Source: a virus. From it: 33,332 bases of DNA. The position numbers and the translations under genes were made by a program. Positions within the stretch are counted from its first letter, which is position 1; each line of letters opens with the position of its first letter. The notes beneath the pieces were generated by a model. The model made no database searches. It worked only from the letters and a program-made list of their open reading frames with translations, and was not told the DNA's origin. The stretch is taken from positions 1-33,332 of IMG/VR virus record IMGVR_UViG_3300047551_000604, one strand, 5' to 3'. Positions 17,627-33,332 of the stretch are shown one piece after another.

Positions 17627-17810
17627 ACCCGAGTACTTGCTGCCGTTTGAGCAGATGCGCGTAGGAGATAGTTTTTTCCTACCAACGCTACGCCCTGCCG
17701 AAATGATCTACGTCATGGACACTCGTGCCAAAGTGGCAAAAGTTCGGGTCAAGTCATACCCTGCGACCAAAAACGGTCTCATGGGTATTCGGGTCTGGCG
17801 CACTCGTTAG
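17598..17810 (+). CDS. conserved small protein, 70 aa
   Basis: The last + strand gene. ATG 17598 lies in the end of the primase-helicase gene. The pattern FEQMRVGDSFFLP, then KVRVKSYPATKNGLMGIRVWRTR, recurs in small phage and bacterial proteins of unknown function. It is basic at its C-terminus and could bind nucleic acid. Its stop TAG (17808-17810) overlaps, head-on, the stop of the opposite-strand giant gene. Confidence 0.7.
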   Translation: MPISPRQLTEPEYLLPFEQMRVGDSFFLPTLRPAEMIYVMDTRAKVAKVRVKSYPATKNGLMGIRVWRTR

Positions 17811-20800
17811 TACGGCTCAGCCATCAAGGCATCGGTCGCCATGCGCAAATTACGCGGCAAGTAGATACCATTGACTGCCTCAAGTGCTCTGCGGCGACGC
17901 TCACGAAATGAGGCACGAAGCGACTTAGGGTTAATTATGTACGACGGGTTCGCGGCGTTGAATTTGTCTATGGCCTCGTATGCTTCGATCATTGCCTGAC
18001 CATCACCTGCTTCAGTCGCAGCGTATACATTTGTTAACAGGGCAGTTCGACGATTACGGAGTTTGTCCGAGATTTGGAATGTCGCACCGATCTGTTCTTG
18101 TGTAGCCGCGAGTTCTGCAGGGGCAAAGCCGAAAATTTGCATGGTTGAGTTCCATGCATTGACATCGTCTACGATGGGTAGACCGTTTTTGGTCAGTGCG
18201 CCTTCTGTCGCATACCGCGCTGCCTTGAGTGGGTTGCGTAACGGTGCGGGCAGAATTGACTCAAACCCACGCTGCACGTTGCCATCCATCAAGTTCTCAA
18301 TACCGCGAATTTGTGATTGGACAAGCCCATAGGTGGGACCAGCGACACGCTCAGCGATGTACAGCGGGTAGCCGACTTCAGCCAAACGTTTTGAATCATC
18401 CCGCCACAACATACCATTGAAACCAGTTCTAGAAGCAATATCAACCTGCAGCGCAGCGTTGAGCGGACCGTTTAGCCCGAGCAAACCCACGCTATCGATC
18501 ACTTCTTGTTGTAGATCGTAGGGTTCATCGTCATCACCCATCAACGCAGCCGCGAGAACTTCAGCCGCGCCGAACAACGGCAGACCTTTCATACCTGCCA
18601 TCATGTAGGTGGCTCCGTACACGCCAAGCAATTGCTTACGCGCTAACGAACGTTCTTCTGGTGTAGCGTCAATAACTTTAAGCGCACGACCAAACATGCG
18701 GGACAGAGCGATGATTTGGGTCAAGGCAAAGGTGCGGAACGTCAAGATCACACGGCCAAGATTGGTCTGATACATGCGCGAGGCTTGTTCAGGCAGCACT
18801 GTACCGTTGATGTTGTTGTTCAACCGGATGGCTTCTTCAGCCGCCTCACGGAATCCCTTGCCTTTCTCCCGTGCCAACATGAACGAGGCCAGCATCGTCA
18901 CTTCACGGTTGAACCGCTCTGAGTTTTTGAACACGTAGCCTGCGACAAAGTTGATCTTGTCCATCGTGCTTTCGTAGCCGCTGATCGCTGCACGTTGGGC
19001 TTGACGCAGTTCTTGTTCTGCTGCAATACCTATCGCACCACGCTTTTCAAGGTAATTGAACAGTGTCTTGAGTTCGCCCGAGGCAGCGTTACCAAATGTG
19101 AAGTTGCCTTGAGCATCTACACCACCTTCAAGGAATATCTTCATGGCGCGACCCATCGCAGCGATAGATTTCACTGGGCCGTACTTCGACATCAGCATTG
19201 GCCACGTTATCATGGCAAGTACTGTAGTGTTGATCAGTGCCGAGGAGATGTTACCCGCGATGCTGTAAACGTAGTTGGCTGTAGCCGCTGCATTAACCCA
19301 CGGCGCATAGCTGGGGTTATAGGCAAAGTCGAGCCGACGCCGCATATCTTCAACGCCGTCGAACACAGCCTTGGGACTCATCAACTTACGACCTCTGAGT
19401 CTCTCAGGAATATTGTTGTCCCTGACAGCAATCTCGTAGAGTTTTGCTTGCTCCAAAATCTTCTTCATCGCGTTTTCAATTGGCAACGCGAACTTCAAAT
19501 TACCCAACTGATACGCCATCTTCGGCATGGTGCGGTCGTATACCGCAAGGACATCTTGGTCAAAGCCCAGCACACCGAACTGTATCGCACCGTCAACTTC
19601 TGAAGTCTGGCGGCTTGTCAGTTCCTGCCGCAGCATGTTGGACGGCAAGTATTGGAGGAACGTGTCGTAGACACCATCGATAATCTCTTTCCTCTGTGCC
19701 TCCGGCATATCGCTCAGTTTGTCTTCCAACTTGGAGATAATTTCACCCAAGAAGCCAACCGGCGGCGGACCTTTCTGTCGGATTTCTGACGGTCGCGTAA
19801 CGCGTTGAATTGTATTTGTATTAGCAAGACCTTCTTGCGTGATTCGCTTGATTTCAGTCTCTCGCGCTGCAGCGTTACTGAATGGTTGTTTGACTACTTG
19901 GCCATCGGTCGTTTCGTAATACAACCAGTGCGCACCTTCGCCACGGACAAGCGGGGCATACATCGGCAAACGCTCGCGTTCAAAGCGTTCACGCAGGTCA
20001 CGTACAACACCCATGCCCAACTGACCACCGTAGACCTCGGCAAAAATATCAAACTTCTTATCACCCATCTTGCGATAGTCAGCGAACAAACCACTACGCT
20101 CATCGGCGCTCAGGATTGAATTCTGAAATGCCTCGGGCAAGTCATAGAACTTTTTGGCGATGTCGTAGTACTTTTGTTTCTGCGGCGACAAGGTAGCGCG
20201 GTCTTGCGTTAACAAATCACGGACAGCCTGACTACGGACGGGTACCTGAAACAAGTTGATATTGTTTACGACATCTTTAAACTTGTCATAATCTTGAGGA
20301 TTCCCCTGCACAACACGGCTGTACTTTGCATGATTGTCTGCCGCTGTCTTCATCAAGTCAGTCGTGTACGAGGCACGGTAACCAATGAAGCGATCAATTG
20401 CTCTGATGCGTGGGATGTATCGCTCAAGCAACTCGACCATGTGAGGCATGGAGTAGACGTAGTACTGTCCTCTACGCAAGTTTTCAGGAAGGTTAGACAG
20501 TGTTTCGGCTACGCCGTCACCCAAGTTTTGCGACCACTGTGGCAGTGTAGCGTTGCGGGCCAGCGCATCGGAGATGATGTTATTGTACTGTGATATCTGA
20601 TACCGAGGCCGTGCATCAGGCGTCCCCAACTTCATCGGCCCCACACGGACACGCTCTGCAGACTCAAGCAGAATGTTGTTGATGTCGTTGTTGGTGTAGT
20701 CGAGTTGGATACCCATGCTGCGAATAAACTTGCGGATCATGGCAGCGAGACGGTTGAACGCCGCCCGGATACCCGGCTCTTTAATGACCCCTGCCTCTGA

Positions 20801-23800
20801 CTTGGCAGCGAGTACTTCTTCTACAGCGCGAGCAACACGGTCTACACCTGTATATACATCCGGGTGCTTACGTAGCCAAGCGTCCGCCTGACTTTGTATT
20901 GCACTGTTCGTGGCATAAATATCGTTAAGCGCCTTGTCTAACTTTTCACCGAAAAGCCCACGCAAACCATAATGGCCGAGTGATTCGTGGAACAGCGTAG
21001 CCTTGACTTCAGATGGTGATCCAGCGTTGGCTGCAACGATATACACGTCGTTACCCAGCAACATACCTCGGACACGCTTGTACTTGTCAGAGCGGTACGC
21101 TTTCGGCAGGTCTTTATGAGTATTGACGACTTTGATATTGGGTTTATTTACCCAGCCTTGGGTTAATTCTGATACTACTTTCTGGACTTGTGAGACCGCC
21201 ATGCCTTTGGTAGTCCGGCGACCCATGCGGAAGAGAGGCAGTTTGACGAGCAAGTTACTCCGCATCTCGGGAGTAATTTCAATCACCGTGCGGACTTCGC
21301 CCGGCTGAGTCTCATCTAGGGGGCGACTTTCTCTTTCGTAGGTTTTTACTGCGTCAATAAACTCACGGATGGCATTGTTCGTTTCAATACCTTCCGGTGT
21401 ATTAGGTTTACCAACACCAATATGCCCTTCATTGATTGGGTATAGGTCTATATCACCACTACGAAGTCCTTCCATCAGTCTAGTAAAAGCAGTTCTGCGT
21501 TTTTTGCCGATGCTTTGACCATCACCCAAGACCTCGTAAGCAGAGGCGACGCTCGGATTTGCCTCAAGTTCTTTTTTGATCGCAGCAGAAATCTTGGATT
21601 CCAACTCCCACGGCGACCTAACTTTAGAGAAAGTAACCTTTCCCTTGTATTTGTTTACGATATTTTTAATGTTTTTAGGCGAAATAACATCATAGAAGAA
21701 CTCTTGTCCACGTAGATCACCCATCGTATAACTTTTTGCTTCTTGTCCCTGCGGAAACATAATCCGTTCGTAACCATTATCTGCAGCGTACTTCAGGATT
21801 CGCTTCAGAATGAGGTTTTGCCACTTGTCCGTCGAACCACTAAACGGAAAGCGTGGGGTATCAAACCTTTTTTTGCGACCTCTAGATGTTTCTAAATTAG
21901 CTTCTTTTATTTGAGTAGCCATATTTTCTGCATCTCTTTTAACCAAACCGAGTTCCTCTCTAACTCTTCGAAGTTCTCGTGGAGGAATTGCAGATGAAGC
22001 GGAAATCTGGCCTAAAGCCCCGTAAAAAGATTCTTGTTTAAAAGGCGGTAAAGTTTCAAATCTTTTCTTTAGGGCATCTTTAGTCAACAACGATTGTGTT
22101 GATGGCTCTGGGAGAGTCGGGTCATATGACGAAAAATCATAAAGTCCGATATAAGCCCCAGACGCTGATTTAAATATAGCGTACGGAGATTCACCTTTCT
22201 CAAACTCAGAGATTATTTTTTCTGCGCCGGGAAATAAATCAACAAAATCAACTCTTATTCTAGGATTTGCGTAGTCCTCCCAGTTATTAATAGCATCTTC
22301 TAAATCTACCGTGTGTAGAGTTAACTTACGTTCTTCTCGCCGTAGGTCCTCTAACTTTTCATCGACATCATTTATAATTTTTTGTTGTTCTTGGTACTGC
22401 TGAAGCGCAGCCGCTATCTTGGGTTCTTTTTCTTCCCCAACAAATCCTCTATCGCGACCGGTCTGCGCGAGTTGAGATTGCATTTCATGAACCATCAGCA
22501 CTTTGCCGTCGTTCATGTCTGACATGCGCATATGGCCTATGGCGTTACGACCATACTCATTCCAATGCTCTTCTTGAAATGTATTTTCATTAGCAAGTTT
22601 ATTAATTTCGTGTGTTATTAAATCCCTTTTATGCCGCAGTTCATCTAGCTTAGTATAGTACCCCAGAGTCCTAGTGTTGTAGTCTGCGTCATTCTCGGAG
22701 CGACTTATCTGATCTTGGATGTTTACAAATTCATTTTGCGTATTTACTAATTCAGTACGGAGTGCTTCAGCTTTTTGTCGTACTGCAGGAATAGTAGGAA
22801 TACGAATAATTAATTCGCGATAGTTATCACCAAACGGATGCCTAAACCCAGAATATTTAACGGGACCGGCTATGCCTTCTGCGCCGGGGATGGTTTTTTC
22901 TTTTATTGAATAGCGGTCTCGCTCAAAGTCATACACTGCGTTTCTGTAATCGTCAAAATCTCCCTCATAATCTCCCGGCATATCGGCAGGATCCAACTCA
23001 TCTATTGCAATAAAAGAAATAGATCGTATAAAATTGTCAGCTTCGTATTCGCTGTCAAATGTATCAATAAGGTCCCCAAAATCAGAATAAACTTCGTATT
23101 GTTTACCACCCGCGTTCTCTCCCAACAGCGTTTCTTCAAGGGTTACACCATTGTTGGCGAGATAGTTCAGTGCGTCTTCTTTGCTGACATTACCTTCCTG
23201 TGCCTCAAGCCAGTCCTTGAAGCCGGTGTATTCAAGTTCTTCGTCTTTGACGTTCTTGTTGCGCAACGTGGCAAGCCACTGCTGCGGCGTAGCCGACTTG
23301 AGAGGCAGTCGTTCAGCCTGACGGGCAAGTTCGGAGTAGTACCAAGACTCCGGGTCTTCATCGATTTGGAACCGGGCGGGTTCTACGTTGAGAGCTTTTT
23401 GTCTCGCAGTAGTTGGTATCAGTATTTCTTCTTCCCCAAAATTTTTTTCGCCAATAGCATTGCTGTATGAAAGTACGTCTGATACCGGGACTTTTATTTC
23501 TTCAATCTGTCCACTACGTATACCTTGTTGCTCAGCAAAAAATTTAGCCGTATCTTTATCTAAGCTGTAACTCAGTACAGGAGTTTTATCTTCAGTACCT
23601 TTCAGCCCACGATAAAGAATGACCTCGTCGCCAAATCGTTTTTGCAACGCGTATTGTGAGACTTGTTTTATATAATTTTTGGCCCTTTCTATGTCATCCA
23701 TAGAAGGGACTTCATCTAAATCTAAATTTGTTGTAGTCGCATCTTGCGGGTCTGGCTCATAAAGCCCCCGTGCAAAATCAGATGCCCCTCTTCTGTTTAC

Positions 23801-24883
23801 AATCAGTTGCGAAATCGGATCGGGTTCTAGTGGAGGTTGTACACCTTCCTCTCCCTCATCAACCCGTCGAGCAGGGCCACGAGGAACGCCCATTCCTGCG
23901 GTTCTAAATCCCTCAACATCTGGTCCTGCGGCTCCAACTCGTGATACAGGCAGTTCAACGCCTCTTGTATCTGCTCCCGTGATAACTTGTTCAGTACCAA
24001 CTCTTGTACGTTCATCTTCGCCCTCCGGTGGGGCCACTGCACCACGAACACGGCGTCCCACGGCCAAATCGGTGAGTCCTTGTATAAAGGCTCCGATGCC
24101 GAACCCATAGGCACCTTCTTCTGCCGCCCCTTCAAAGACATCTTGTTCGGGGTTGTAGAGTCCTTTTTCAATGAGGTTTTGGGCGATGTTTGCCGAGGCT
24201 TCTTGTGCAAACTCTTCTCCACCAGCCGCCGCAGCGCGTTTGATGTACTCTAAAACTAATCCTTTATCTTGATCCGGCAAACGGTTAAGGATTCGGTCTG
24301 CGAATCGGAATACAGGCACAACTTCAGTCGCTCCGACCAAAGCACCGAGAGCCGTGGCTGCGCCACGCTCTTCCATGCCGCCTTCCTGTTCTGCCCGGAC
24401 CCGCGCCTCGCCTGCACCGGCACCTACGCCAAGCCCTGCAGCGCCCAACCGGCCTGCTACACCAAGAGGGCCAAGTGCAAAAAAAGGTGCGGTGGACCCG
24501 AGCGCCTCGCCTGCTTTACGTCCTATAGACTCTTCATAGCCAGCCGCAGCTTCAAACGGCTCACGAAGTGATCCTGCGATGTCTTCAATTTGCCCACGCA
24601 CAGCCCGTTCGGCTTGGTCAGGCAGAAGCGCAGCCGCACCTGTGGCGGCAGACTGAAGCAAACCCACCGCGCCAGACGGGATACCCTTGAGAACTTCTAA
24701 AACTTCACCCGAGATAGTGGTAGCTGGGGTCGTCCTTTTTTGTTCGACTGGCGTAGACAGTTGTTCATCAGGCGGAGGAAACATCCCCGCGATGTATTGC
24801 TCAACGTCTTCAGGGGCTAACCCCTCATCAACCTCAAAACGGCCAATTCGGCCATCCGGTAGACGGACTCGTGCAATAGGCAT
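17807..24883 (-). CDS. giant polyvalent virion protein with ART-, LPD- and zincin-like regions
   Basis: 2358 residues, about a fifth of the window. Regions in order: a short charged N-terminus, then Ala/Gly-rich hydrophobic segments (68-88, 129-160, 174-194, 244-265) that could insert in a membrane; an ADP-ribosyltransferase-like signature (LYRG with R425, S438-Y-S440, and E484-E-E486 in GEEEIL); a polyvalent-type PQQWLATL segment (about 525-590); an LPD-type region with VHEMQSQLAQTGR (about 800) and DKWQNLILKRILKYAADNGY (about 1020-1040); a zincin-like HESLGH (1299-1304); and a long C-terminal region with hydrophobic helices and an RFNREVTMLASFML segment, resembling podovirus internal virion proteins. 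The start ATG follows AGGGA. Probably packaged and ejected with the DNA; the catalytic activities are inferred from motifs only. Confidence 0.8.
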   Translation of the reverse strand: MPIARVRLPDGRIGRFEVDEGLAPEDVEQYIAGMFPPPDEQLSTPVEQKRTTPATTISGEVLEVLKGIPSGAVGLLQSAATGAAALLPDQAERAVRGQIEDIAGSLREPFEAAAGYEESIGRKAGEALGSTAPFFALGPLGVAGRLGAAGLGVGAGAGEARVRAEQEGGMEERGAATALGALVGATEVVPVFRFADRILNRLPDQDKGLVLEYIKRAAAAGGEEFAQEASANIAQNLIEKGLYNPEQDVFEGAAEEGAYGFGIGAFIQGLTDLAVGRRVRGAVAPPEGEDERTRVGTEQVITGADTRGVELPVSRVGAAGPDVEGFRTAGMGVPRGPARRVDEGEEGVQPPLEPDPISQLIVNRRGASDFARGLYEPDPQDATTTNLDLDEVPSMDDIERAKNYIKQVSQYALQKRFGDEVILYRGLKGTEDKTPVLSYSLDKDTAKFFAEQQGIRSGQIEEIKVPVSDVLSYSNAIGEKNFGEEEILIPTTARQKALNVEPARFQIDEDPESWYYSELARQAERLPLKSATPQQWLATLRNKNVKDEELEYTGFKDWLEAQEGNVSKEDALNYLANNGVTLEETLLGENAGGKQYEVYSDFGDLIDTFDSEYEADNFIRSISFIAIDELDPADMPGDYEGDFDDYRNAVYDFERDRYSIKEKTIPGAEGIAGPVKYSGFRHPFGDNYRELIIRIPTIPAVRQKAEALRTELVNTQNEFVNIQDQISRSENDADYNTRTLGYYTKLDELRHKRDLITHEINKLANENTFQEEHWNEYGRNAIGHMRMSDMNDGKVLMVHEMQSQLAQTGRDRGFVGEEKEPKIAAALQQYQEQQKIINDVDEKLEDLRREERKLTLHTVDLEDAINNWEDYANPRIRVDFVDLFPGAEKIISEFEKGESPYAIFKSASGAYIGLYDFSSYDPTLPEPSTQSLLTKDALKKRFETLPPFKQESFYGALGQISASSAIPPRELRRVREELGLVKRDAENMATQIKEANLETSRGRKKRFDTPRFPFSGSTDKWQNLILKRILKYAADNGYERIMFPQGQEAKSYTMGDLRGQEFFYDVISPKNIKNIVNKYKGKVTFSKVRSPWELESKISAAIKKELEANPSVASAYEVLGDGQSIGKKRRTAFTRLMEGLRSGDIDLYPINEGHIGVGKPNTPEGIETNNAIREFIDAVKTYERESRPLDETQPGEVRTVIEITPEMRSNLLVKLPLFRMGRRTTKGMAVSQVQKVVSELTQGWVNKPNIKVVNTHKDLPKAYRSDKYKRVRGMLLGNDVYIVAANAGSPSEVKATLFHESLGHYGLRGLFGEKLDKALNDIYATNSAIQSQADAWLRKHPDVYTGVDRVARAVEEVLAAKSEAGVIKEPGIRAAFNRLAAMIRKFIRSMGIQLDYTNNDINNILLESAERVRVGPMKLGTPDARPRYQISQYNNIISDALARNATLPQWSQNLGDGVAETLSNLPENLRRGQYYVYSMPHMVELLERYIPRIRAIDRFIGYRASYTTDLMKTAADNHAKYSRVVQGNPQDYDKFKDVVNNINLFQVPVRSQAVRDLLTQDRATLSPQKQKYYDIAKKFYDLPEAFQNSILSADERSGLFADYRKMGDKKFDIFAEVYGGQLGMGVVRDLRERFERERLPMYAPLVRGEGAHWLYYETTDGQVVKQPFSNAAARETEIKRITQEGLANTNTIQRVTRPSEIRQKGPPPVGFLGEIISKLEDKLSDMPEAQRKEIIDGVYDTFLQYLPSNMLRQELTSRQTSEVDGAIQFGVLGFDQDVLAVYDRTMPKMAYQLGNLKFALPIENAMKKILEQAKLYEIAVRDNNIPERLRGRKLMSPKAVFDGVEDMRRRLDFAYNPSYAPWVNAAATANYVYSIAGNISSALINTTVLAMITWPMLMSKYGPVKSIAAMGRAMKIFLEGGVDAQGNFTFGNAASGELKTLFNYLEKRGAIGIAAEQELRQAQRAAISGYESTMDKINFVAGYVFKNSERFNREVTMLASFMLAREKGKGFREAAEEAIRLNNNINGTVLPEQASRMYQTNLGRVILTFRTFALTQIIALSRMFGRALKVIDATPEERSLARKQLLGVYGATYMMAGMKGLPLFGAAEVLAAALMGDDDEPYDLQQEVIDSVGLLGLNGPLNAALQVDIASRTGFNGMLWRDDSKRLAEVGYPLYIAERVAGPTYGLVQSQIRGIENLMDGNVQRGFESILPAPLRNPLKAARYATEGALTKNGLPIVDDVNAWNSTMQIFGFAPAELAATQEQIGATFQISDKLRNRRTALLTNVYAATEAGDGQAMIEAYEAIDKFNAANPSYIINPKSLRASFRERRRRALEAVNGIYLPRNLRMATDALMAEPY

Positions 24884-24895
24884 AGAACGATCCCT

Positions 24896-26497
24896 TTACT
24901 CGTAACCGAGGAATGTTACACCACGACCCCCACCAGCCGCTTCCATACCTCGCGTTGCCGTCGTCACGTCTGCCGCGCTCAAGCCAAGTTCCCCGCGAAC
25001 TTCATTTCTACGCTGCTTCATCTGTTGTTGTATACCAGACGCAGCCTCAGTGTCACCGCCTTTTTTGGCTTTAAGAAGGTCAGTCTGAAGTTGTCGGTAT
25101 ATCGGATCAGTTTGAAGCTGTTCAGCAACCATCTGGGTTTCTTCCAGCCGCTGCCCCATTCCTGCCAAAGCCATACGGCCTTGCGCAGCTTCACGAGTCG
25201 CGCCAATTTGAGCCGCAGTACCTTCACGAGTCGCGGCGATGCGTTCAAAGTCCACCATGAGGTTGTCGCGATGTTTCTGCAAGTCATCTGCGCGAGTCTG
25301 CGCCTGTTGACGCAACGTGACAGCCTTCTCAACTTCGCCCCGAGCCTCAAGTTCGTCGGCTTTGTCGAGCGTGTATTTGGCCTGCATCATCTGTCTACGG
25401 TTAGCCTGCAGTTCTTTGTTCATGCCACGAATGGCTTGCGAGTAACTCACACCACCTTCAGATAATGCACCAAGGAACGTGGCACCCGGACGTGAAGCCG
25501 CCCCTGCCATACGGAACCCGGCTTCAGCCAAAGCAAGCGATCTGTCCTTGCCAAACTCTTCCTCCATGCGGGTTTGTTCGCCTGTGAGGTAGTCACGGAA
25601 CTTGTTACTCGCCACGCTCTGTCCTTCAGCAGTCAGCAAACCACGCTCAATTAGGGGCTTGCGTATCTCTGCGATGCTCTCATTCAACGTGGGTTGAGGC
25701 GCGGCTGCAGCAGGGGTGGGTTTCGCGATACGACGCACTGGGGGTGTTTCTGCAGCAGGGGGCGCGACAGGGGGAGGAACAGGAGAATCAGTGGGGGCAG
25801 CACCTGCCGCCGCCCCATACAGAATTTGATTCACCGGTTCTTGGGCCTTAGTTTGGCGAAGTTCGCTCAATCCAAGGGCTGTGTTTTTTCGGACGTAATT
25901 CATATAGTCCTGTGACAAACCTTTACGGCGCATCACAGGTTCAAGACGATTTGCAGTATCAAAGTCATTTTGACTGAGAGCTTTAGCATACATCCGTGCC
26001 AACTCTTCCGGCGAAGCTTGTTCCCCAAATTGATAAAGCGCAGTCAAATTAAACTGATCTGCACCCTGTGGCTTACCTCTGGAATAAACTTGCTCAACGT
26101 CAAAATCACCTCCACCCGCCAAAGCAACGACGCCACCGCCAGCAAACTGCGGATACTCCATACGGCCAGCGTCAATCGCGCCAAGACCACGATCCATCGG
26201 GCTAGGCTGAGGAGCCGAAGCCTGCATACCACCAATCCCACCCCGCATCTGCTGCTGTTGGTCCAACATATTCAACTGATCACGGATCGTAGGCGGGGTT
26301 TGCGGGGGCTGTGCCTGCGGCTGCTTTAAACGCTGGAACTGATTCATCATGGCGTAGAGATCCGCCAAGGGGGCCACGCCTTGCATAGCCATGCTCTTGA
26401 CATACTGGACCGCTTGGTCAGCGGGCATACCCTTCGCCATCGCTTGTTGGAGCGAGGCCATCATGGCGCGGCCTGTGCCGCTAACTGGACCAATCAT
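24896..26497 (-). CDS. virion-associated protein, 533 aa, coiled coil
   Basis: ATG at 26497 follows GGAGGTAG and overlaps the stop of the upstream 899-aa gene (ATGA). Residues 1-60 are helical, followed by a Pro/Gln-rich linker (QPQAQPPQTPPTI). FAGGGVVALAGGG (about 118-130) is a Gly-rich hairpin also echoed in the neighbouring 761-aa protein (FAGGGMPEY). The second half (about 290-500) is a long Arg/Gln/Glu coiled coil. Proteins of this layout accompany the Gln-rich and polyvalent proteins in related phages, so I infer an internal virion or ejection-complex protein. No enzyme motif seen. Confidence 0.65.
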   Translation of the reverse strand: MIGPVSGTGRAMMASLQQAMAKGMPADQAVQYVKSMAMQGVAPLADLYAMMNQFQRLKQPQAQPPQTPPTIRDQLNMLDQQQQMRGGIGGMQASAPQPSPMDRGLGAIDAGRMEYPQFAGGGVVALAGGGDFDVEQVYSRGKPQGADQFNLTALYQFGEQASPEELARMYAKALSQNDFDTANRLEPVMRRKGLSQDYMNYVRKNTALGLSELRQTKAQEPVNQILYGAAAGAAPTDSPVPPPVAPPAAETPPVRRIAKPTPAAAAPQPTLNESIAEIRKPLIERGLLTAEGQSVASNKFRDYLTGEQTRMEEEFGKDRSLALAEAGFRMAGAASRPGATFLGALSEGGVSYSQAIRGMNKELQANRRQMMQAKYTLDKADELEARGEVEKAVTLRQQAQTRADDLQKHRDNLMVDFERIAATREGTAAQIGATREAAQGRMALAGMGQRLEETQMVAEQLQTDPIYRQLQTDLLKAKKGGDTEAASGIQQQMKQRRNEVRGELGLSAADVTTATRGMEAAGGGRGVTFLGYE

Positions 26498-29193
26498 TGT
26501 CTACCTCCAGTTGTCTGGCCCAATCCGCCAAACAGGCTACCCAACCCTAATCCTACGCCAGCAATCTGTCCAAACAAACTACCCGGCTGCTGATAAATCT
26601 GCTGCGTCTGGCCGGTCGCCGGGATACCACGAAGGATACCTGACATGAACTCCGCCTGCTGGAACGGTAGCCGCTGCGCGTTGAGGAAGTCCTGATACTG
26701 CGTGTTGAGCAGTTCTTGGTTAAGCGCCTGCTGCTGACCGCCTGCACCGAGTTGCGCCTGTCCGATACCCATCTGCTGCTGGTACTGCTGCATACCAAGG
26801 CCACCCAAAGCACCCGCCGCAGCCAACTGCTGTTGCAGACCCTGAAGCCCAAGCCCCGCACCAAACTGTCGCGACTGCTCCGCCAACTGCTGCCCGGCCA
26901 GACCATACTGCGCCCGCTGCGCGGCATTCTGAAGTCCGAACTGGTTAGCCTGCGCCAACTGGGACAACCCCTGCTGCTGAGCCTGAAGTTGCGCGGCTTG
27001 GTTCAACTGTTGTGCCTGCAATCCCTGACCCGCGCCAAACTGCGCTTGGTTGATCAAGGCTTGGAGGTTGCTCTGCCCCGTCTGCATACCCGCCTGTTGG
27101 TTCGCCAGAGCCGCCTGAAGTCCCTGCTGAGACCCCAACTGCTGAATCCCCAAGAGCGCAGCAAGATTCTGCTGTCCAACCTGCATACCGGCTTGCTGAT
27201 TAGCCAACTGCGATTGGAGTCCCGCCTGCTGATTAGCCAAAGCCGACTGCTGTTGTGCCTGAAGGTTTTGTTGCCCCGTAGTAAGTCCAGCCTGTTGATT
27301 CGCCAGAGCCGCCTGCATCGCTGCCTGTTGGTTAGCCAAAGCCGACTGTTGCTGGGCTTGGAGGTTCTGCTGCCCGACCTGCATACCGGCTTGCTGGTTC
27401 GCCAGAGCCGCCTGAAGCCCCGACTGGGTACCCAACTGCTGAACCTGTAGCGCCGCCTGTTGGTTGGCCTGCTCAGCATTCATGCCCGCTGCTTGGTTCG
27501 CCTGAGCAATCTGGGCGCGGAGTTGTTCGGTCGAGAGTTGCCCCTGCTGATTGAGACGAGCAAGCTCCAACGCCTGCTGCGAGGACAGTCCCTGCGTCTG
27601 CAACTGAGCCGCCAAATTCTGCGAAGCCGTAGTCAAACCCGCAGCCTGATTAAGACGCTGGGCCTCCAGTTGCTGCTGAGCCATCAATTGTTGACGTTGC
27701 TGCTCGGCACCGACGTTAAACGCGCCGACGTTATAGCCCATCTGTTGATTGGCAAGTTGTGCCTGAAGCGCCTGCTGTGCGCCAAGTCCTTGAGTCTGAA
27801 GTGCAGCTTGAAGATTCTGCTGCCCAGTAGCCATCCCAGCCTGCTGATTAGCCAAAGCCGTTTGCAACGCTGCTTGCTGGTTCATACCAGAGGCTTGCAG
27901 ACGATTCGCTTCCTGCTGTACTCGTGCTTGCTGTTCATTCGACAGGTTCGCCATCGCCACTTGCAGGCCAGTCTGAGTACCCAACTGCTGCACACCGAGA
28001 CGTGATGCAAGGTTTTGCTGACCAACCGTGAGACCCGCTTGCTGATTAGCGAGAGCGGCCTGCATAAGCGCAGCACGGTCTTGTCCAAACTGACTCGCAG
28101 CCTGCTGGTACGCCTGCTGAAGTCCCGAAGCCTCAATATCGCCCATCCGCTCAGCAAGCCCACGCCGGGCCTCTGACTCAAGCAACGCCTCACGAGTGCC
28201 ACCACGACTACCGGCACGAGCGGCTGCACTGCCGATACCCGGCAACTGCCTCATGTAGTCACGGACTGCCGCCTGCTTCTGTTGCTCGACGACGCCCCGC
28301 ATGTAAGGCGACATGTACTCCTGCATCTGGGGAACGCCAAAACGCTCAGCCCCTACTTGCTGCGCCGGGCCCATTTCAAAGGCTTGCAGGTCAGGACGGA
28401 ACCCCGATTGTGCCGCTTGTAAAGCTCCAAGCCCAACTCGTTCTGCGCTTATACGCTCAGCCGGACCCATCTGATACTGTGTAAGCGACGGTGCAGACAC
28501 ATCACGCGGCCCCACCATACCGAGGCGTTCAAGTTCAGCAGCACGAACCTGCTGGGCAGGCGACATTTGATATTGCTGTAATGCAGGACCACCAACTTGC
28601 TGATAGGCCGCAGGACCCGCAACACGTTCCGGAGCCGCAACCCGGTACTGCTGGAGAGCGCCAATACCCACACGCTCAGCCGGACCCATTTGAGCAGCAC
28701 CCACACGCTCAGCACCCACCTGCTGGGGAGCAGCCATCTGAGCAGCACCTATCCACGACGCGCCCACTCGTTCGGCAGGCCCCATCTGAAACTCACGCAG
28801 TTGCTGTGCAGCGACCCGTTCTGGACCCGCCATCTGATACTGCGTAGCGCCCGGAGCCGAGACCCGCTCAAACCCAGTCGCCATTTCACGGAAGGCAGGA
28901 GACTCATAGAACTGCCGCTCAGCAGCCGGACTGTACCGGCTCAACTCCCCAGCCCTAGCACCCGCCAACCCAGCAAGGCCAGTGGCCTGACGGATCTGAT
29001 CCGCAGTCTGCATCCCAGCAATATTCTGGAACGCTTGCATTTGTTGCGGCGTGAACTCCGCTACGCGCTGCCCAGTATACGGCTCATAGCCACGTTGACT
29101 TAATGCTTGTGCCTGCCCCAGCAACTGCGCTGCATAGGGCTTCATCCACTCCGGAATGTTGGAGGTAGTTTGGATTGTTTCTGTAGCGGCCAT
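26494..29193 (-). CDS. Gln/Ala-rich hendecad-repeat virion protein, 899 aa
   Basis: N-terminal 1-60 has the phage signature IPEWMKPYAAQLL and GYEPYTGQRVAEFTPQQ. Residues about 108-290 hold at least seven QM-x-x-P-x-x-V type repeats (for example QMGPAERVG). Residues 300-375 are a basic helical joint (SPYMRGVVEQQKQAAVRDYM, then REALLESEARRGLAERMG). Residues 378-780 are 11-residue repeats such as QAALANQQAGM and QVGQQNLQAQQ. A Gly-rich hydrophobic C-terminus (LFGQIAGVGLGLGSLFGG) could interact with membrane. GGGAG precedes the ATG. Probable internal virion or ejection protein forming a long helical assembly (inference). It has almost no aromatic residues or cysteine in the repeats. Confidence 0.75.
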   Translation of the reverse strand: MAATETIQTTSNIPEWMKPYAAQLLGQAQALSQRGYEPYTGQRVAEFTPQQMQAFQNIAGMQTADQIRQATGLAGLAGARAGELSRYSPAAERQFYESPAFREMATGFERVSAPGATQYQMAGPERVAAQQLREFQMGPAERVGASWIGAAQMAAPQQVGAERVGAAQMGPAERVGIGALQQYRVAAPERVAGPAAYQQVGGPALQQYQMSPAQQVRAAELERLGMVGPRDVSAPSLTQYQMGPAERISAERVGLGALQAAQSGFRPDLQAFEMGPAQQVGAERFGVPQMQEYMSPYMRGVVEQQKQAAVRDYMRQLPGIGSAAARAGSRGGTREALLESEARRGLAERMGDIEASGLQQAYQQAASQFGQDRAALMQAALANQQAGLTVGQQNLASRLGVQQLGTQTGLQVAMANLSNEQQARVQQEANRLQASGMNQQAALQTALANQQAGMATGQQNLQAALQTQGLGAQQALQAQLANQQMGYNVGAFNVGAEQQRQQLMAQQQLEAQRLNQAAGLTTASQNLAAQLQTQGLSSQQALELARLNQQGQLSTEQLRAQIAQANQAAGMNAEQANQQAALQVQQLGTQSGLQAALANQQAGMQVGQQNLQAQQQSALANQQAAMQAALANQQAGLTTGQQNLQAQQQSALANQQAGLQSQLANQQAGMQVGQQNLAALLGIQQLGSQQGLQAALANQQAGMQTGQSNLQALINQAQFGAGQGLQAQQLNQAAQLQAQQQGLSQLAQANQFGLQNAAQRAQYGLAGQQLAEQSRQFGAGLGLQGLQQQLAAAGALGGLGMQQYQQQMGIGQAQLGAGGQQQALNQELLNTQYQDFLNAQRLPFQQAEFMSGILRGIPATGQTQQIYQQPGSLFGQIAGVGLGLGSLFGGLGQTTGGRQ
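26854..28062 (-). repeat. about 36 hendecad (33-bp) repeats
   Basis: Within the 899-aa protein, residues 378-780 divide into 36 consecutive 11-residue units with a single 7-residue unit near residues 565-571. Typical units are QAALANQQAGM, QVGQQNLQAQQ and QTQGLGAQQAL; LANQQAG occurs exactly seven times. At the DNA level this is a degenerate 33-bp periodicity, some units nearly identical (27150-27420). Eleven residues make three helical turns, so a continuous straight helix or right-handed coiled coil is predicted. Confidence 0.85.
28325..28870 (-). repeat. QMxxPxxV repeats in the 899-aa protein
   Basis: Residues about 108-290 carry at least seven copies of a QM/EM-x-x-P-x-x-V core, often followed by GAERVG or LQQY: QMAGPERV, QMGPAERV (twice), QMAAPQQV, QMSPAQQV, QMGPAERI, EMGPAQQV. 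Spacing varies from about 20 to 35 residues. The pattern is distinct from the hendecads and looks like short beta or turn repeats rather than helix. Confidence 0.75.
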
Positions 29194-29205: not shown

Positions 29206-31491
29206 TTAAGCAGGAAGGTATTTGTTGGCTTTTACGGCAGGGGCTTGTTGTGATTTGCCCGTCCGAGCCTGACGAATACGATCCATCATTTGATAAAGTT
29301 TTTTGGCTCCCGCTTTCGTGGAGCCGTTACCGAGATGCGATACCACATCCGCCGGAATGACGAACTCGCCATCGGCCAACGCAGCACGTTGTACTCCCTT
29401 ACCGCGAATCACGGCAGGGATATCGTCTGACATACCATCGCCCGGACCATTCAGCAGTTTCCCACCGGCTTGGTACTCAGGCATACCGCCACCCGCAAAG
29501 CCAAAATTGTAGTCCTCGCCTTGTGCGCCGAACGGGTTTGGGGCGGTCATGCCGCCTTGAACGAACTTTTTTGTATTTTTCTTTCTGTCTTCGTCTTTTG
29601 GTAAGAGTCCGCCAGTAGGAGTGCTTGGAGTGTCTGCTCTTACACCACTGCGGAATGCGTCTAGAGTCATTACGTTTGGATCAGCAAAAATATTATTAAA
29701 AGCCTTTTGTGCCGCTGATCCCGCCAAAGCCCCTATAGGCCCCGCAAGCGTCCCTCCAACCAATGCCCCAGCATTTTCTTTTGCGTACTCAAGCGCCCTT
29801 TCTCCGGCAGCAGCAAGACGCTCCGTAAACGTAGGAGGCATATTAATTTCAGGCTGTGTAATCGGCGCACCCACGTCTACTGCCGGTATATCAGCCGGAG
29901 GCTCAGTCGGAGGCGCAGTGACATCGACCGGAGGTAAGTTAACCGGCGGAGCCGCAACAGGAGCCTCAACAGGAGGGGCGATAGGGGCAAAAGGTGTTTC
30001 AACCGGAGGAACAACCGGAGGCGGAGTCACGACAGGAGGCGGAGTCACGACAGGAGGCGGAGTCACGACAGGAGGCGGAGCCACAGGTGCCGGGGATGCA
30101 ATGGGCGGGGCAAATATCGGGGCCACCGCTTGCGGGGTACTGACCTCTTCTCTAGGCGCTACAGGATCCCGGTTTCGCGGGTCCGTAGGGTTATTCTCTG
30201 GGTCGAATGGGTTATACGGATTAAAAGGGGCTTTAGCCGGTGCCGTGTCGTATTTAGCAACAACCGGGTTCTTCGCCCTTCGGTTCAACTCTTCGACATA
30301 AGCCATCACAGCCGACGTATCGACAGGACCGCCATCAGCAAAACGCTGTTCTCCCGTATACGGGTCGATGGGTTCTTGGTATGACCCGACTACTTCTCGT
30401 GACTGGGGGTTTGCCGCGTAATTCGTTTGCATTACCGTCGAAAGAGGGTAGTTCGGATTAGGCGCCGGAATCATATTGGTTTGATGCGGCAATGACCGCT
30501 GCCCACTAAACGGGGCTACTACCCCACCATCGGCATAACCCGGAGCCTTGGCAAACGGATTGGTCGGAACCAGCCCCTGCGGGGTTTTCTTGTAGTACTG
30601 CCCCGGCAAGAAGTAGGACTCGCTGTACCCCTTACCATAGTTCGGGTTGACCTGCCCCGGAATGTAATACATGTCCTCGCCCAACTGCGCCTGAGTCGGG
30701 GGCTTCACTTCGGGTGTCATGGCATCCAACGCCCCAACGAGCGTGGCGTACTTAGAAGCACTCTGACCAAGTTTAGATTCAAAGCCCCCACCAAGCGCCG
30801 TACCGAATGCTTCGCGGGATTGCGGGCTAGTGAAGAGGCTCTTTGCGCCTTGTGTCAGACTTGCGAGACCGGTGGGAGCAGCAGTTGCTGCTTGGCTAGC
30901 GAGTTGCCCCATAGTTGAGGACTCAAGCAGTGAAGGGGCTTTAATACCCTGCATCCCAATTTTTGGAATATCCAGACCACCCGGAGTTGTATTGGTCACT
31001 ACTTGCGAGAGTTTTACAGCCTCCGGTCCTGCTCCAACTATGTTCTTTGCCGCTTCAGTGGCTTGGGTTACCTTAGCAACATCTTGCGGGGTGGGGGGAG
31101 GAGGCACCGCTGCTTCGGCGGCTTTGGTCAAGGCTTGAGAAATATTTGCCCCACTGTACGCCCCGAGACCCGCCATCAAGCCTTTCTTCAGGTCGCCTTC
31201 GATTAGCGCCGTGGCTCCGCCGACTAGCAAACCCGCTGTCATCGGGTTGATCAAGCCCCCCGTCAGTGGAGTCAGCACCGCCCCCGCGAGCATCGGCAGG
31301 AGTTTCTTCAAGAAGTTAGCTTCGTACAGGCCCGTTTCCGGGTTGATGGTCAGACTGCCGCCGTGAGCCGTTGCCAACTGTTGCAAACCCGCAACTTCTT
31401 GTGGGGCCATGTGAACAAGAACAGAATCCCCATTCCGGCCACGGGAGGCGAGGAGTGATGCGAGACCTGCTTCGGGGGCTTGGTTATACAT
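29206..31491 (-). CDS. virion-associated protein with hydrophobic N-region and Pro-rich repeats, 761 aa
   Basis: The N-terminal region, SVLVHMAPQEVAGLQQLA then LTINPETGLYEANFLKKLLP, followed by a hydrophobic Gly/Ala/Leu stretch (61-110), recurs in phage virion proteins. The middle is low-complexity, including PPPVVT repeats (about 468-494). The C-terminus (about 678-761) has GPGDGMSDDIPAVI, ADGEFVIPADVVSHLGNGS and AGAKKLYQMMDRIRQARTG, a domain widely shared by podovirus-type structural proteins. GGAGC precedes ATG 31491. Likely part of the internal or ejection apparatus. No lytic motif is seen. Confidence 0.7.
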   Translation of the reverse strand: MYNQAPEAGLASLLASRGRNGDSVLVHMAPQEVAGLQQLATAHGGSLTINPETGLYEANFLKKLLPMLAGAVLTPLTGGLINPMTAGLLVGGATALIEGDLKKGLMAGLGAYSGANISQALTKAAEAAVPPPPTPQDVAKVTQATEAAKNIVGAGPEAVKLSQVVTNTTPGGLDIPKIGMQGIKAPSLLESSTMGQLASQAATAAPTGLASLTQGAKSLFTSPQSREAFGTALGGGFESKLGQSASKYATLVGALDAMTPEVKPPTQAQLGEDMYYIPGQVNPNYGKGYSESYFLPGQYYKKTPQGLVPTNPFAKAPGYADGGVVAPFSGQRSLPHQTNMIPAPNPNYPLSTVMQTNYAANPQSREVVGSYQEPIDPYTGEQRFADGGPVDTSAVMAYVEELNRRAKNPVVAKYDTAPAKAPFNPYNPFDPENNPTDPRNRDPVAPREEVSTPQAVAPIFAPPIASPAPVAPPPVVTPPPVVTPPPVVTPPPVVPPVETPFAPIAPPVEAPVAAPPVNLPPVDVTAPPTEPPADIPAVDVGAPITQPEINMPPTFTERLAAAGERALEYAKENAGALVGGTLAGPIGALAGSAAQKAFNNIFADPNVMTLDAFRSGVRADTPSTPTGGLLPKDEDRKKNTKKFVQGGMTAPNPFGAQGEDYNFGFAGGGMPEYQAGGKLLNGPGDGMSDDIPAVIRGKGVQRAALADGEFVIPADVVSHLGNGSTKAGAKKLYQMMDRIRQARTGKSQQAPAVKANKYLPA
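30013..30084 (-). repeat. 18-bp tandem repeat coding PPPVVT
   Basis: Three near-perfect 18-bp units start at 30031, 30049 and 30067 (GACAGGAGGCGGAGTCAC on the + strand; the third has one change). A diverged fourth unit precedes them at about 30013. They encode a stretch of Pro-Pro-Val-Val-Thr repeats in the 761-aa protein. Such arrays change copy number easily by slippage and probably act as a flexible spacer. Confidence 0.85.
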
Positions 31492-31515: not shown

Positions 31516-32112
31516 TTAGTTGGCTTCGTAGTTCGACACCCAAACCACGGACAGAATAATGGACGGAATCGCTGGAATATTGCCTGATGCAGTCACGTAA
31601 GGAATGATCACATCGGTGTCAGACGACTGCCAAGCCAACTCAAAATAGTCGTTTGCCTGCATCACAAGCACGAAGTTCCACGCCGCCACGATCTCGTTGT
31701 TAGGGCCGTCGATTACGATCTTGGTAGCCGAATCGGGAACATTAACTCCATTAATCCGGGGCCAGATATACACGGCGCTTGCGCTACCGCCCGATTTATC
31801 CAACTGAGCGGAGAACTGAAAGTTATAAATACCCGTCTGGCTTACGTAGATTTTGGAAGTCGGTACCCCACGAGTAACGCCTTGCTCGGATACAGACGAG
31901 TTATATGTGAAAAGATTAACTGTGTCCGCCACCGGATTTGTTTGAGTAGTCGTATCAAAATACGACCCGTGCGCGGTGGGCGAGTTAATCCTATTCGTGA
32001 CCTGCGTAAAGTACAGCCGCAGGACGTTATTCAACTGGTCCTGAAACCGCATCTCATACTGGGACGGAGCCAGCGGCAGGTTAGGGGCGACAACTCCACG
32101 AGCGACGGTCAT
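31516..32112 (-). CDS. jelly-roll-like virion structural protein, 198 aa
   Basis: ATG 32112 overlaps the stop of the gp10-like gene (ATGA). The N-terminal 40 residues (PLAPSQYEMRFQDQLNNVLR) recur in phage tail-associated proteins. The rest is beta-rich, with SKIYVSQTGIYNFQFSAQLD, WPRINGVNVPDS and ANDYFELAWQSS, the pattern of C1q/TNF-like jelly-roll heads found on phage fibres and decoration proteins. It probably lies on the tail or capsid surface; receptor binding is possible but unproven. Confidence 0.65.
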   Translation of the reverse strand: MTVARGVVAPNLPLAPSQYEMRFQDQLNNVLRLYFTQVTNRINSPTAHGSYFDTTTQTNPVADTVNLFTYNSSVSEQGVTRGVPTSKIYVSQTGIYNFQFSAQLDKSGGSASAVYIWPRINGVNVPDSATKIVIDGPNNEIVAAWNFVLVMQANDYFELAWQSSDTDVIIPYVTASGNIPAIPSIILSVVWVSNYEAN

Positions 32113-33332
32113 CGGCGTCCATCCGGGCGAACATCAATTCGCATCATGCCCATCTGCCACGCCACACCAAGATCAGTCGAGTGGACTCGGAACGACATCT
32201 GACGGCCCCGGATGCGGGTGTAGACCTGACCCGTGTACTGCTGGATCGGTATCGTCGAAGTGCGCGTGACCGTGGGGCTGTCGGCAGAGGTGTAGTTAGT
32301 GCCAGAATTTTGACGCGGTTTGACCGTGAGCGTGACCGTGGGGCTGGTTGCTGAAGAGCCAGTAAAGTTTAAATCCGGCAGGATGCGCCAGACGTAGCCA
32401 AAACTCTGCCCGTCCTGAATGTCAAAGTCTGACGATTCAATAAAAGACTCAATCGGCAACGCGGGACTTACTGACGCATCGTCGTTACCTACCTCATGGA
32501 ACAGCGCCTGATTCGGCACCGTGTAGGGAGCGGCTGTGTACAGATCATGCGAGGCGGCAGTTGTACTGTTGGCACCCCGTATACACCCAGTGAGAGTATT
32601 GCCACTTAACCCTGTATAAGTAATCTGCTCCGAGTCAATCTGCACCGTGCCTTCAACCGGGTATGCCGACGCATCAATCAAGGCAATCGTCGTAACAGCA
32701 GAATTGATCGAAGTAGCAAGGTACGAGTTCTGTACTGAGAACGCCGCAACAGGCAAATCTCTCTGGGTGTGTTCCGCCCATGCAGTTCGGGTAAGAGTTC
32801 CGTAGTACCAGACTCGCTCAAGATAGTTATAGATCACGTACCGATCATTAGTCTGGCTATTGGCGGAAGGATAAAACCACCAGACCTCGTTGAAGCCTTG
32901 GTTAGAACCCGCACAGACCTGATCAATCTGATCGTAGTTAATATCGCTGTACACAAACTGACGCAGCGTACAAGGCAAGGTCTCGACACGACCTGTGTAC
33001 AGGAAGAACTTATCCCGCCCCATCCAGAACGTAATGTTATTTACCGTAATCGCTGCGCTTTGCGAAGCAATGGATATATCTTGGTCAATGAGGTTAAAAG
33101 TCCACACAAACGGAGGACCGACGTACTGCATGGAGAACACAGCCGTATCCGTCCAGATCAGGATTTCCTGACGGGTATTCGCAGCAGCGACGATATATGA
33201 CCCGTGCGAGAGAGTCTGTTCACCCGATTGGTTTGTTACCTGCGGCACCCATTCATACGCATTGCCCTGATCTGACCAGCGCACAAGCAGCGGGTTGAAT
33301 GTGGTTACGAAGTTAGTCGGATCATATGGGCA
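32109..33332 (-). CDS. P22 gp10-like tail protein, 3' part (runs off window)
   Basis: The frame stays open to the right edge; the GTG at 33284 is internal, and the codons up to 33332 read CPYDPTNFVTTFNPLLV in frame, so the gene is cut by the window. About 407 residues are visible. Features such as ILIWTDTAVFSMQYVGPPF, ITFWMGRDKFFLYTGRVETL and DRYVIYNYLERVWYYGTL are typical of the P22 gp10 tail-hub / stabilisation family (beta-propeller). An inserted small module (YLATSINSAVTTIALIDAS through NTLTGCIRGANSTTAASHD) lies in the middle. It should close the DNA channel and join the tail needle or knob to the portal. Confidence 0.7.
   Translation of the reverse strand, partial: CPYDPTNFVTTFNPLLVRWSDQGNAYEWVPQVTNQSGEQTLSHGSYIVAAANTRQEILIWTDTAVFSMQYVGPPFVWTFNLIDQDISIASQSAAITVNNITFWMGRDKFFLYTGRVETLPCTLRQFVYSDINYDQIDQVCAGSNQGFNEVWWFYPSANSQTNDRYVIYNYLERVWYYGTLTRTAWAEHTQRDLPVAAFSVQNSYLATSINSAVTTIALIDASAYPVEGTVQIDSEQITYTGLSGNTLTGCIRGANSTTAASHDLYTAAPYTVPNQALFHEVGNDDASVSPALPIESFIESSDFDIQDGQSFGYVWRILPDLNFTGSSATSPTVTLTVKPRQNSGTNYTSADSPTVTRTSTIPIQQYTGQVYTRIRGRQMSFRVHSTDLGVAWQMGMMRIDVRPDGRR

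Follow-up and report, generated by a model that had tools for sequence, protein, structure and literature searches.

The tail of a podovirus does not reach across the envelope, and the building of a DNA conduit is still known mostly from relatives of T7 and P22. The virus contig IMGVR_UViG_3300047551_000604 of IMG/VR raises the question of what a long 11-residue repeat might do in a protein assigned to DNA ejection. The window analysed here is the entire contig record, 33,332 bases of an incomplete genome. Its minus strand encodes an 899-amino-acid (aa) protein of the PHROG 4287 family, in which the repeat occupies residues 378-780. We place at about even the chance that this protein is carried inside a short-tailed phage and ejected, and that its helical rod extends the DNA conduit.

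An 11-residue repeat in the 899-aa protein

26494..29193, minus strand: 899-aa protein, PHROG 4287 (DNA ejection protein) family
26854..28062, minus strand: hendecad (11-residue) repeat region, residues 378-780; about 34-36 units, 33-residue super-repeat; helical in the AlphaFold2 (AF2) model
27517..27546, minus strand: phase slip (4/7 residues) and predicted helix break, residues 550-559 (Viterbi register; AF2 break at 550-554)
27163..27426, minus strand: 99-bp tandem repeat at the DNA level (Tandem Repeats Finder: 2.7 copies, 68% matches)

A sequence-only reading of this locus had divided residues 378-780 into about 36 units of 11 residues. These coordinates proved exact (28062-26854), the period was far above chance, and a count of about 34-36 units was judged fair. 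Self-alignment and Fourier analysis, which were among the checks proposed with that reading, recovered the periodicity in the window and in relatives. Self-identity over residues 378-780 was raised at lag 11 (z 7.2), lag 22 (z 6.9) and lag 33 (z 14.7, 43% identity), and was at background level at the heptad lag of 7 (z 0.7). A fitted 11-position profile scored 241 compared to 73 +/- 6 for shuffles, and when other periods, including 7, 10, 12, 15 and 18, were tried by profile fit only the multiples 22 and 33 stood out. The register runs through residues 377-558 and then from 560 to about 746, and is looser past 746. The single slip that had been claimed is present, but it lies at about 555-560 rather than at 565 and amounts to 4/7 residues rather than 7.

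Typical alternating units are LQAALANQQAG, LTVGQQNLASR and LQTQGLSSQQA. Since there are three alternating unit types, the best-conserved repeat spans three hendecads, which is 33 aa or 99 bp. Residues agree at 48% of positions between the 33-residue units, and the agreement of synonymous codons is 0.42, against 0.42 expected for random codon choice. Residues have thus been kept while codons were randomised, which shows that the units are old and that the protein sequence is under selection, rather than the units being recently copied DNA. The hendecad stretch has no Trp, 4% charged residues and no Pro, compared to 23 Pro in the first 377 residues. Position a of the hendecad is Leu/Met or another large hydrophobic residue in 85% of cases, with weaker hydrophobic residues at e and h adding to that face.

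Evidence for a hendecad helix

The evidence points to the hendecad region being a helix. Averaged over 60 dereplicated relatives, Fourier power at 3.667 residues was 9.3 for Gln, 6.3 for Asn, 5.5 for Ala and 3.7 for large hydrophobic residues, compared to 1.0 in shuffles and 0.4-0.9 at the heptad value of 3.5. In these relatives the amphipathic signal of Ser/Thr was likewise highest at 11/3 residues per turn, and Gly peaked nearby at 3.65. This family-wide peak, with none at 3.5, bears out the hendecad helix that had been proposed.

The AF2 model, built from 32 sequences, placed helices at residues 332-435, 439-549, 555-683, 691-719, 724-749 and 769-855. The breaks fell at 436-438, 550-554 (the slip), 684-690, 720-723 and 750-768. 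Block values of the predicted local distance difference test (pLDDT) in the repeat were mostly 60-80, falling to 41-56 around 680-780. The model of a compact relative was also all-helical, with lower confidence. Confident disorder, named beforehand as evidence that would speak against a helix, did not appear, and AF2 placed helix over nearly the whole region. A single continuous helix of 60 nm, as first envisaged, was not supported, the model being interrupted at five places.

On a helical wheel, Leu/Met centred at 8 degrees, Gln at 56, Ala at 174, Asn at 221 and Gly at 268, putting the Ala face about 166 degrees from the Leu face. Apolar faces on opposite sides of the helix would fit lateral packing, in a sheet or a wide barrel. 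A helix of this kind might otherwise coat a membrane, with the rod lying on the host membrane and sealing or holding the conduit rather than forming its wall. Eleven-residue repeats lying on membranes are found in alpha-synuclein and the perilipins, and the uncharged polar 11-residue repeats, narrow Leu face and few charges seen here are in keeping with such a coat. The opposite Ala face, however, fits two-sided helix packing equally well or better, and a membrane coat appears decidedly improbable.

Length across the family changes in helix-compatible steps

Relatives were collected by scans of IMG/VR and of bacterial genomes, together with cultured phages, giving 147 proteins with both of the conserved flanks. 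These flanks are the YMSPY..GG[ST]R domain and the C-terminal LLN.QYQDF helix, which in the window protein are as follows.

28078..28335, minus strand: anchor 1, the most conserved domain, YMSPYM..VV..QK...GG[ST]R.ALL..EA.R, residues 287-372 (conserved columns)
26629..26889, minus strand: anchor 2, conserved C-terminal helix, residues 769-855 (EQSRQFGAGLGLQGLQ ... LLNTQYQDFLNAQRLPFQQ; AF2 helix, block pLDDT up to 86; conserved columns)

The invariant residues of anchor 1 are M294, P296, Y297, G328, G331, G332, G357 and A361. In the 147 proteins, the flank-to-flank distance ranged from 66 to 831 residues, or about 10 to 125 nm if extended. The sequence-only reading had considered the rod long enough to span an envelope. 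The range among relatives with the same flanks is far wider than any envelope difference, which argues that length is not matched to the envelope, and one 60-nm helix across the envelope is doubtful. The family, which is widespread, is instead a natural length series on one conserved scaffold, in which the role and the determinants of conduit length can be tested by removing or adding units.

Taken modulo 11, the distances fell into two main classes 4 apart, holding 28 and 25 of 79 dereplicated proteins; the minor classes, 3 and 2, are reached via a further 4 or via 7. Quantisation at modulus 11 gave a chi-squared per degree of freedom (chi2/df) of 13.9 for these 79 proteins, compared to a jitter-null maximum of 3.5, although the sequences are related and hence not independent, and whole-unit steps also arise from tandem duplication alone. 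Stricter dereplication gave 6.1 (n=46) and 4.4 (n=32), with jitter-null maxima of 3.7 and 4.2. Among the other moduli from 4 to 30, 22 aside, none exceeded a chi2/df of 3, and a variable control segment upstream of the GG domain was unquantised (chi2/df 1.1). Of 71 length differences between near relatives, 41 were multiples of 11, 26 were 4 or 7 modulo 11, and 4 were of other sizes. Steps of 4, 7 and 11 residues preserve helix phase, and the near absence of other indels despite such divergence indicates that the phase is under constraint. Unit numbers showed no clear parity of the kind that a simple two-arm hairpin would require. The 11-residue repeat is absent from the short homologues of cultured phages, indicating that the rod is an extensible insertion.

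These data bear on whether the expansion is simply tolerated, with no length-dependent function, such that unequal recombination changes the number of units and selection purges only helix-breakers. Length varies about 12-fold between relatives sharing flanking domains, and homologues without the repeat seem to suffice in cultured phages, both as expected for tolerated expansion. Against this, Leu, Gln, Asn and Gly positions were kept even though synonymous sites between units are saturated, and the period and faces are common to distant relatives. Together, these observations indicate that the rod itself is under selection, and tolerated expansion as the whole explanation seems quite unlikely.

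A different period was observed in CRP-901 gp33 (L090:18392-19777), which has an 18-residue repeat (FGAEDVMRGRF..) instead of an 11-residue one (lag 18 z 8.2, lag 36 z 6.1). A period of 18 equals 11+7 and is likewise helix-compatible (18/5 = 3.6).

Family assignment and virion association

28969..29193, minus strand: N-terminal conserved domain, residues 1-75 (IPEWMKPYAAQLLGQ..GYEPYTGQRVAEFTPQQ); phrog_4287 match at 6-72, E 5.6e-6; alignment
26509..26577, minus strand: Gly-rich hydrophobic segment LFGQIAGVGLGLGSLFGGLGQTT, residues 873-895; most hydrophobic 19-mer of the protein (mean Kyte-Doolittle value 1.47)

The match of the window protein to phrog_4287, 'DNA ejection protein', covers residues 6-72 only as its best stretch. 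The compact relative L018 matched with E 1.5e-8 over 3-305 of its 435 residues. Matches were also obtained for phiM5 gp27 (6.5e-91), MinM2 (2e-19) and Pa223 gp56 (1.5e-10), and weak ones for the CV-1-33 and CRP-901 homologues (4.6e-5 and 1.4e-4). By profile searches, short cultured-phage homologues were found in MinM2 (316 aa), DSL-LC04 (294), HTVC023P (gp81, 278), MJing1 (330), CRP-901 (gp33, 461 aa), CV-1-33 (gene 42, 294) and phiM5 (gp27, 468), and all seven match PHROG 4287. A tblastn search of an annotated phage collection with the window protein and L018 gave no match; the family was reached through the relative L071, the phiM5 protein and the neighbouring nozzle gene. The 899-aa window protein had no match in Pfam or NCBIfam, and sequence searches returned no solved structure for phiM5 gp27, L018 or Pa223 gp56.

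The PHROG 4287 and LUZ24-like members (phiM5 gp27, Pa223 gp56, MinM2, HTVC023P gp81) have in common with the window protein the flanking domains, the position after the nozzle and a Gly-rich hydrophobic C-terminus. They are about 280-470 aa without hendecads, whereas the 899-aa protein has about 36 hendecads in addition, as well as a 16-residue repeat. In 59 of the 76 complete relatives, hydrophobicity peaks beyond the C anchor, within the Gly-rich C-terminus. Presence in the virion rests on the record annotation of the homologue phiM5 gp27, from a Sinorhizobium phage, which reads 'detected in phage particle proteome'; three genes for 'putative internal virion proteins' then follow.

Some annotations would instead place the protein outside the virion, as a tail fibre or spike with a trimeric coiled-coil shaft. 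Names such as tailspike, tail fiber or chaperone of endosialidase are attached to the homologues in phiM5, vB_OspP_OH and MW202496. In addition, phiM5 gp27 (L084:11575-12981) carries a Peptidase_S74 domain, and rods of 75-125 nm are feasible outside a capsid. However, no S74 or receptor-binding domain was found in the window protein or in the other scanned relatives, phiM5 gp27 being the sole S74 carrier among those scanned. Most relatives end in the hydrophobic Gly-rich segment, the PHROG label is DNA ejection, and the gene lies among internal protein genes. The tailspike and tail fiber names are likely a naming error, arising probably from the C-terminal S74 chaperone domain, and we regard a fibre or spike as highly improbable.

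The gene lies in a podovirus ejection cassette

32109..33332, minus strand: podovirus tail nozzle protein (phrog_3287), C-terminal part, gene truncated by the contig end (profile match)
31516..32112, minus strand: 198-aa protein with no assigned function, between nozzle and ejection genes
29206..31491, minus strand: 761-aa protein, N-terminal part hydrophobic, FADGG motifs, upstream partner of the 899-aa gene
24896..26497, minus strand: 533-aa protein, next gene downstream of the 899-aa gene, matches no known family
17807..24883, minus strand: 2358-aa protein, C-terminal part PLxRFG/DarB-like (NF032893 E 3.5e-104; phrog_10089 DarB-like E 3.4e-60)

The 899-aa gene belongs to an ejection cassette of the podovirus type and is located between the genes for the tail nozzle and the giant PLxRFG/DarB-like protein. 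The minus-strand order is nozzle fragment, 198 aa, 761 aa, 899 aa, 533 aa and 2358 aa, and genes for replication (HNH endonuclease, DNA polymerase, exonuclease, helicase, primase/DUF927) occupy the plus strand. A Shine-Dalgarno-like GGGAG precedes the ATG of the 899-aa open reading frame (ORF), at whose end the TGA stop and the ATG start of the following gene overlap as ATGA. The nozzle was identified through the full-length phrog_3287 homologue in the relative L032, which matches the solved nozzle chains 9nwi_Y, 8zkm_E and 8zkk_O. Across the 147 family loci, a homologue of the 761-aa protein was found upstream in 126, a nozzle homologue upstream in 113, and a PLxRFG/DarB-like giant downstream in 41. 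The giant of the window is probably also ejected. The ejection genes of T7 likewise come after the nozzle gene, and P22 has a gene 7, 20, 16 block. Together, the PHROG 4287 match and the gene order bear out the proposed place of the protein in the DNA-ejection machinery.

A proposed role in extending the DNA conduit

In the arrangement that we propose, the core of the protein would comprise the N-terminal domain, the YMSPY...GG[ST]R helical domain, the C-terminal helix and the Gly-rich hydrophobic tail, with the extensible alpha-helical hendecad rod inserted mid-core. Several copies would be stored in the head near the portal and would leave by way of the nozzle before the DNA does. Their hydrophobic end would enter a host membrane, and the Gln/Ala/Leu helices of adjacent copies may pack side by side and lengthen the DNA channel, around a lumen that amide side chains would line, with the rod setting the reach of the conduit.

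Several findings weigh against this role. For the 899-aa protein, ejection and tube formation are inferred rather than directly observed, and no experiment was traced behind the function label of PHROG 4287. Rods at the upper extreme (about 830 residues, 125 nm) are too long to lie straight in a podovirus head, and an S74 chaperone domain and tailspike annotation occur among the homologues. Confidence of the AF2 model was only moderate (mean pLDDT 60, predicted template modelling score 0.28). Foldseek found no solved relative of the model in the PDB, and its significant matches among viral models were to uncharacterised phage proteins only. Comparison with P22 gp7 and T7 gp14 by hhalign against single sequences gave probabilities of 3% and 0.1%, respectively, and the profile resemblance to the phiX174 H hendecads was weak, 66 of 2000 shuffles being equally good.

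T7 gp14, like P22 gp7, is the first ejection protein, and it forms the channel at the outer membrane. On leaving the internal core it enters the opened nozzle, and there each copy lengthens the channel with a hairpin of two antiparallel helices (PMC11784390). The window protein resembles T7 gp14 and P22 gp7 in gene-order position and in being an Ala/Gln-rich helical protein, and P22 gp7 also has a Gly-rich hydrophobic C-terminus. It differs in that gp14 and gp7 have 196-229 aa, no 11-residue period and no detectable homology to it. Since homology was not found, any statement that it works in place of gp14/gp7 refers to position and architecture rather than to membership. Direct homology to P22 gp20 and gp16 was rejected at the profile depth used. 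No 11-residue period was detected in T7 gp14-16, P22 gp7/20/16 or Pa223 gp53/54/56, and the open-access literature yielded no description of hendecads in ejection proteins of podoviruses.

Protein H of phiX174 forms a decameric tube of hendecads and heptads, with amide side chains facing the lumen (PMC7354561). Given these features of H, a tube wall would be plausible for the window protein by analogy. Both have hendecad helices and abundant amide side chains, the period of 11 in H covering residues 151-194. However, H comes from an unrelated virus and has three hendecads followed by heptads in a 17-nm tube. The resemblance is marginal, and the Gln face of the window protein, at about 56 degrees, falls between the Leu (8) and Ala (174) faces.

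In how its length behaves, the protein comes closest to the siphophage tape measure. Some tape measures carry 11-residue units in varying number, combine them in 11-11-18 patterns and have duplicated or lost entire units (PMC3271669), and the likeness extends to 18 = 11+7 stutters. The rod might accordingly act as a ruler or spacer whose length fixes the height of an internal core or the head-to-membrane reach, with no channel lining required and with each phage tuning it by gain or loss of 11-residue units. The variable repeats and mixed 11-11-18 periods of tape measures (PMC3271669), together with the shifts of this family in 11s with 4/7 slips, would be consistent with a ruler. Tape measures, however, have Trp/Phe markers, long tails and a function in tail length, none of which was seen for the 899-aa protein. 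The four-marker Trp/Phe pattern is absent and there are 0 Trp, so membership among the tape measures fails. The phage has a podovirus nozzle, no tail-tube gene or long-tail module was seen in the window of this incomplete genome, and homologues almost without the repeat exist. A ruler in this strict sense is unlikely.

We tentatively suggest, while giving it a low probability, that the protein is a podoviral counterpart of the tape measure, in which an ejected hendecad rod would be a ruler or tube evolving in 11-residue steps, its reach set in each lineage to head size or host envelope. Length could otherwise reflect a ruler role, folding back of the rod on itself, or tolerated expansion. The comparison points to repeated use of hendecad helices by phage DNA-delivery proteins that are unrelated to one another, namely phiX174 H, tape measures and the PHROG 4287 relatives.

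Other features of the locus

28324..28866, minus strand: second, unrelated repeat, period 16/32 (QMGPAERVGAERVGA), residues 110-290 (lag 32 z 9.8, lag 16 z 6.0; pLDDT about 33-56)

The period-16/32 repeat contains no Asn, and its length differs strongly among relatives without being 11-quantised. AF2 confidence is low here, and residues 110-290 are probably unstructured. Long antisense ORFs lie over the hendecad repeat at 26716-27450 and 27460-28005 (plus strand); they are most likely by-products of the Gln/Ala-rich composition and not genes. In some relatives (L063, L064, L065, L068, L071-L074, L077, L079) the gene is split, the N-terminal domain and the helical part being separate adjacent ORFs. 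The bacterial-genome scan was uninformative about the host, returning scattered metagenome-assembled contigs and one isolate. In the 2358-aa protein, the first 30 residues look by eye like the start of P22 gp16, and a YRG..SYS..EEE pattern resembles an ADP-ribosyltransferase motif.

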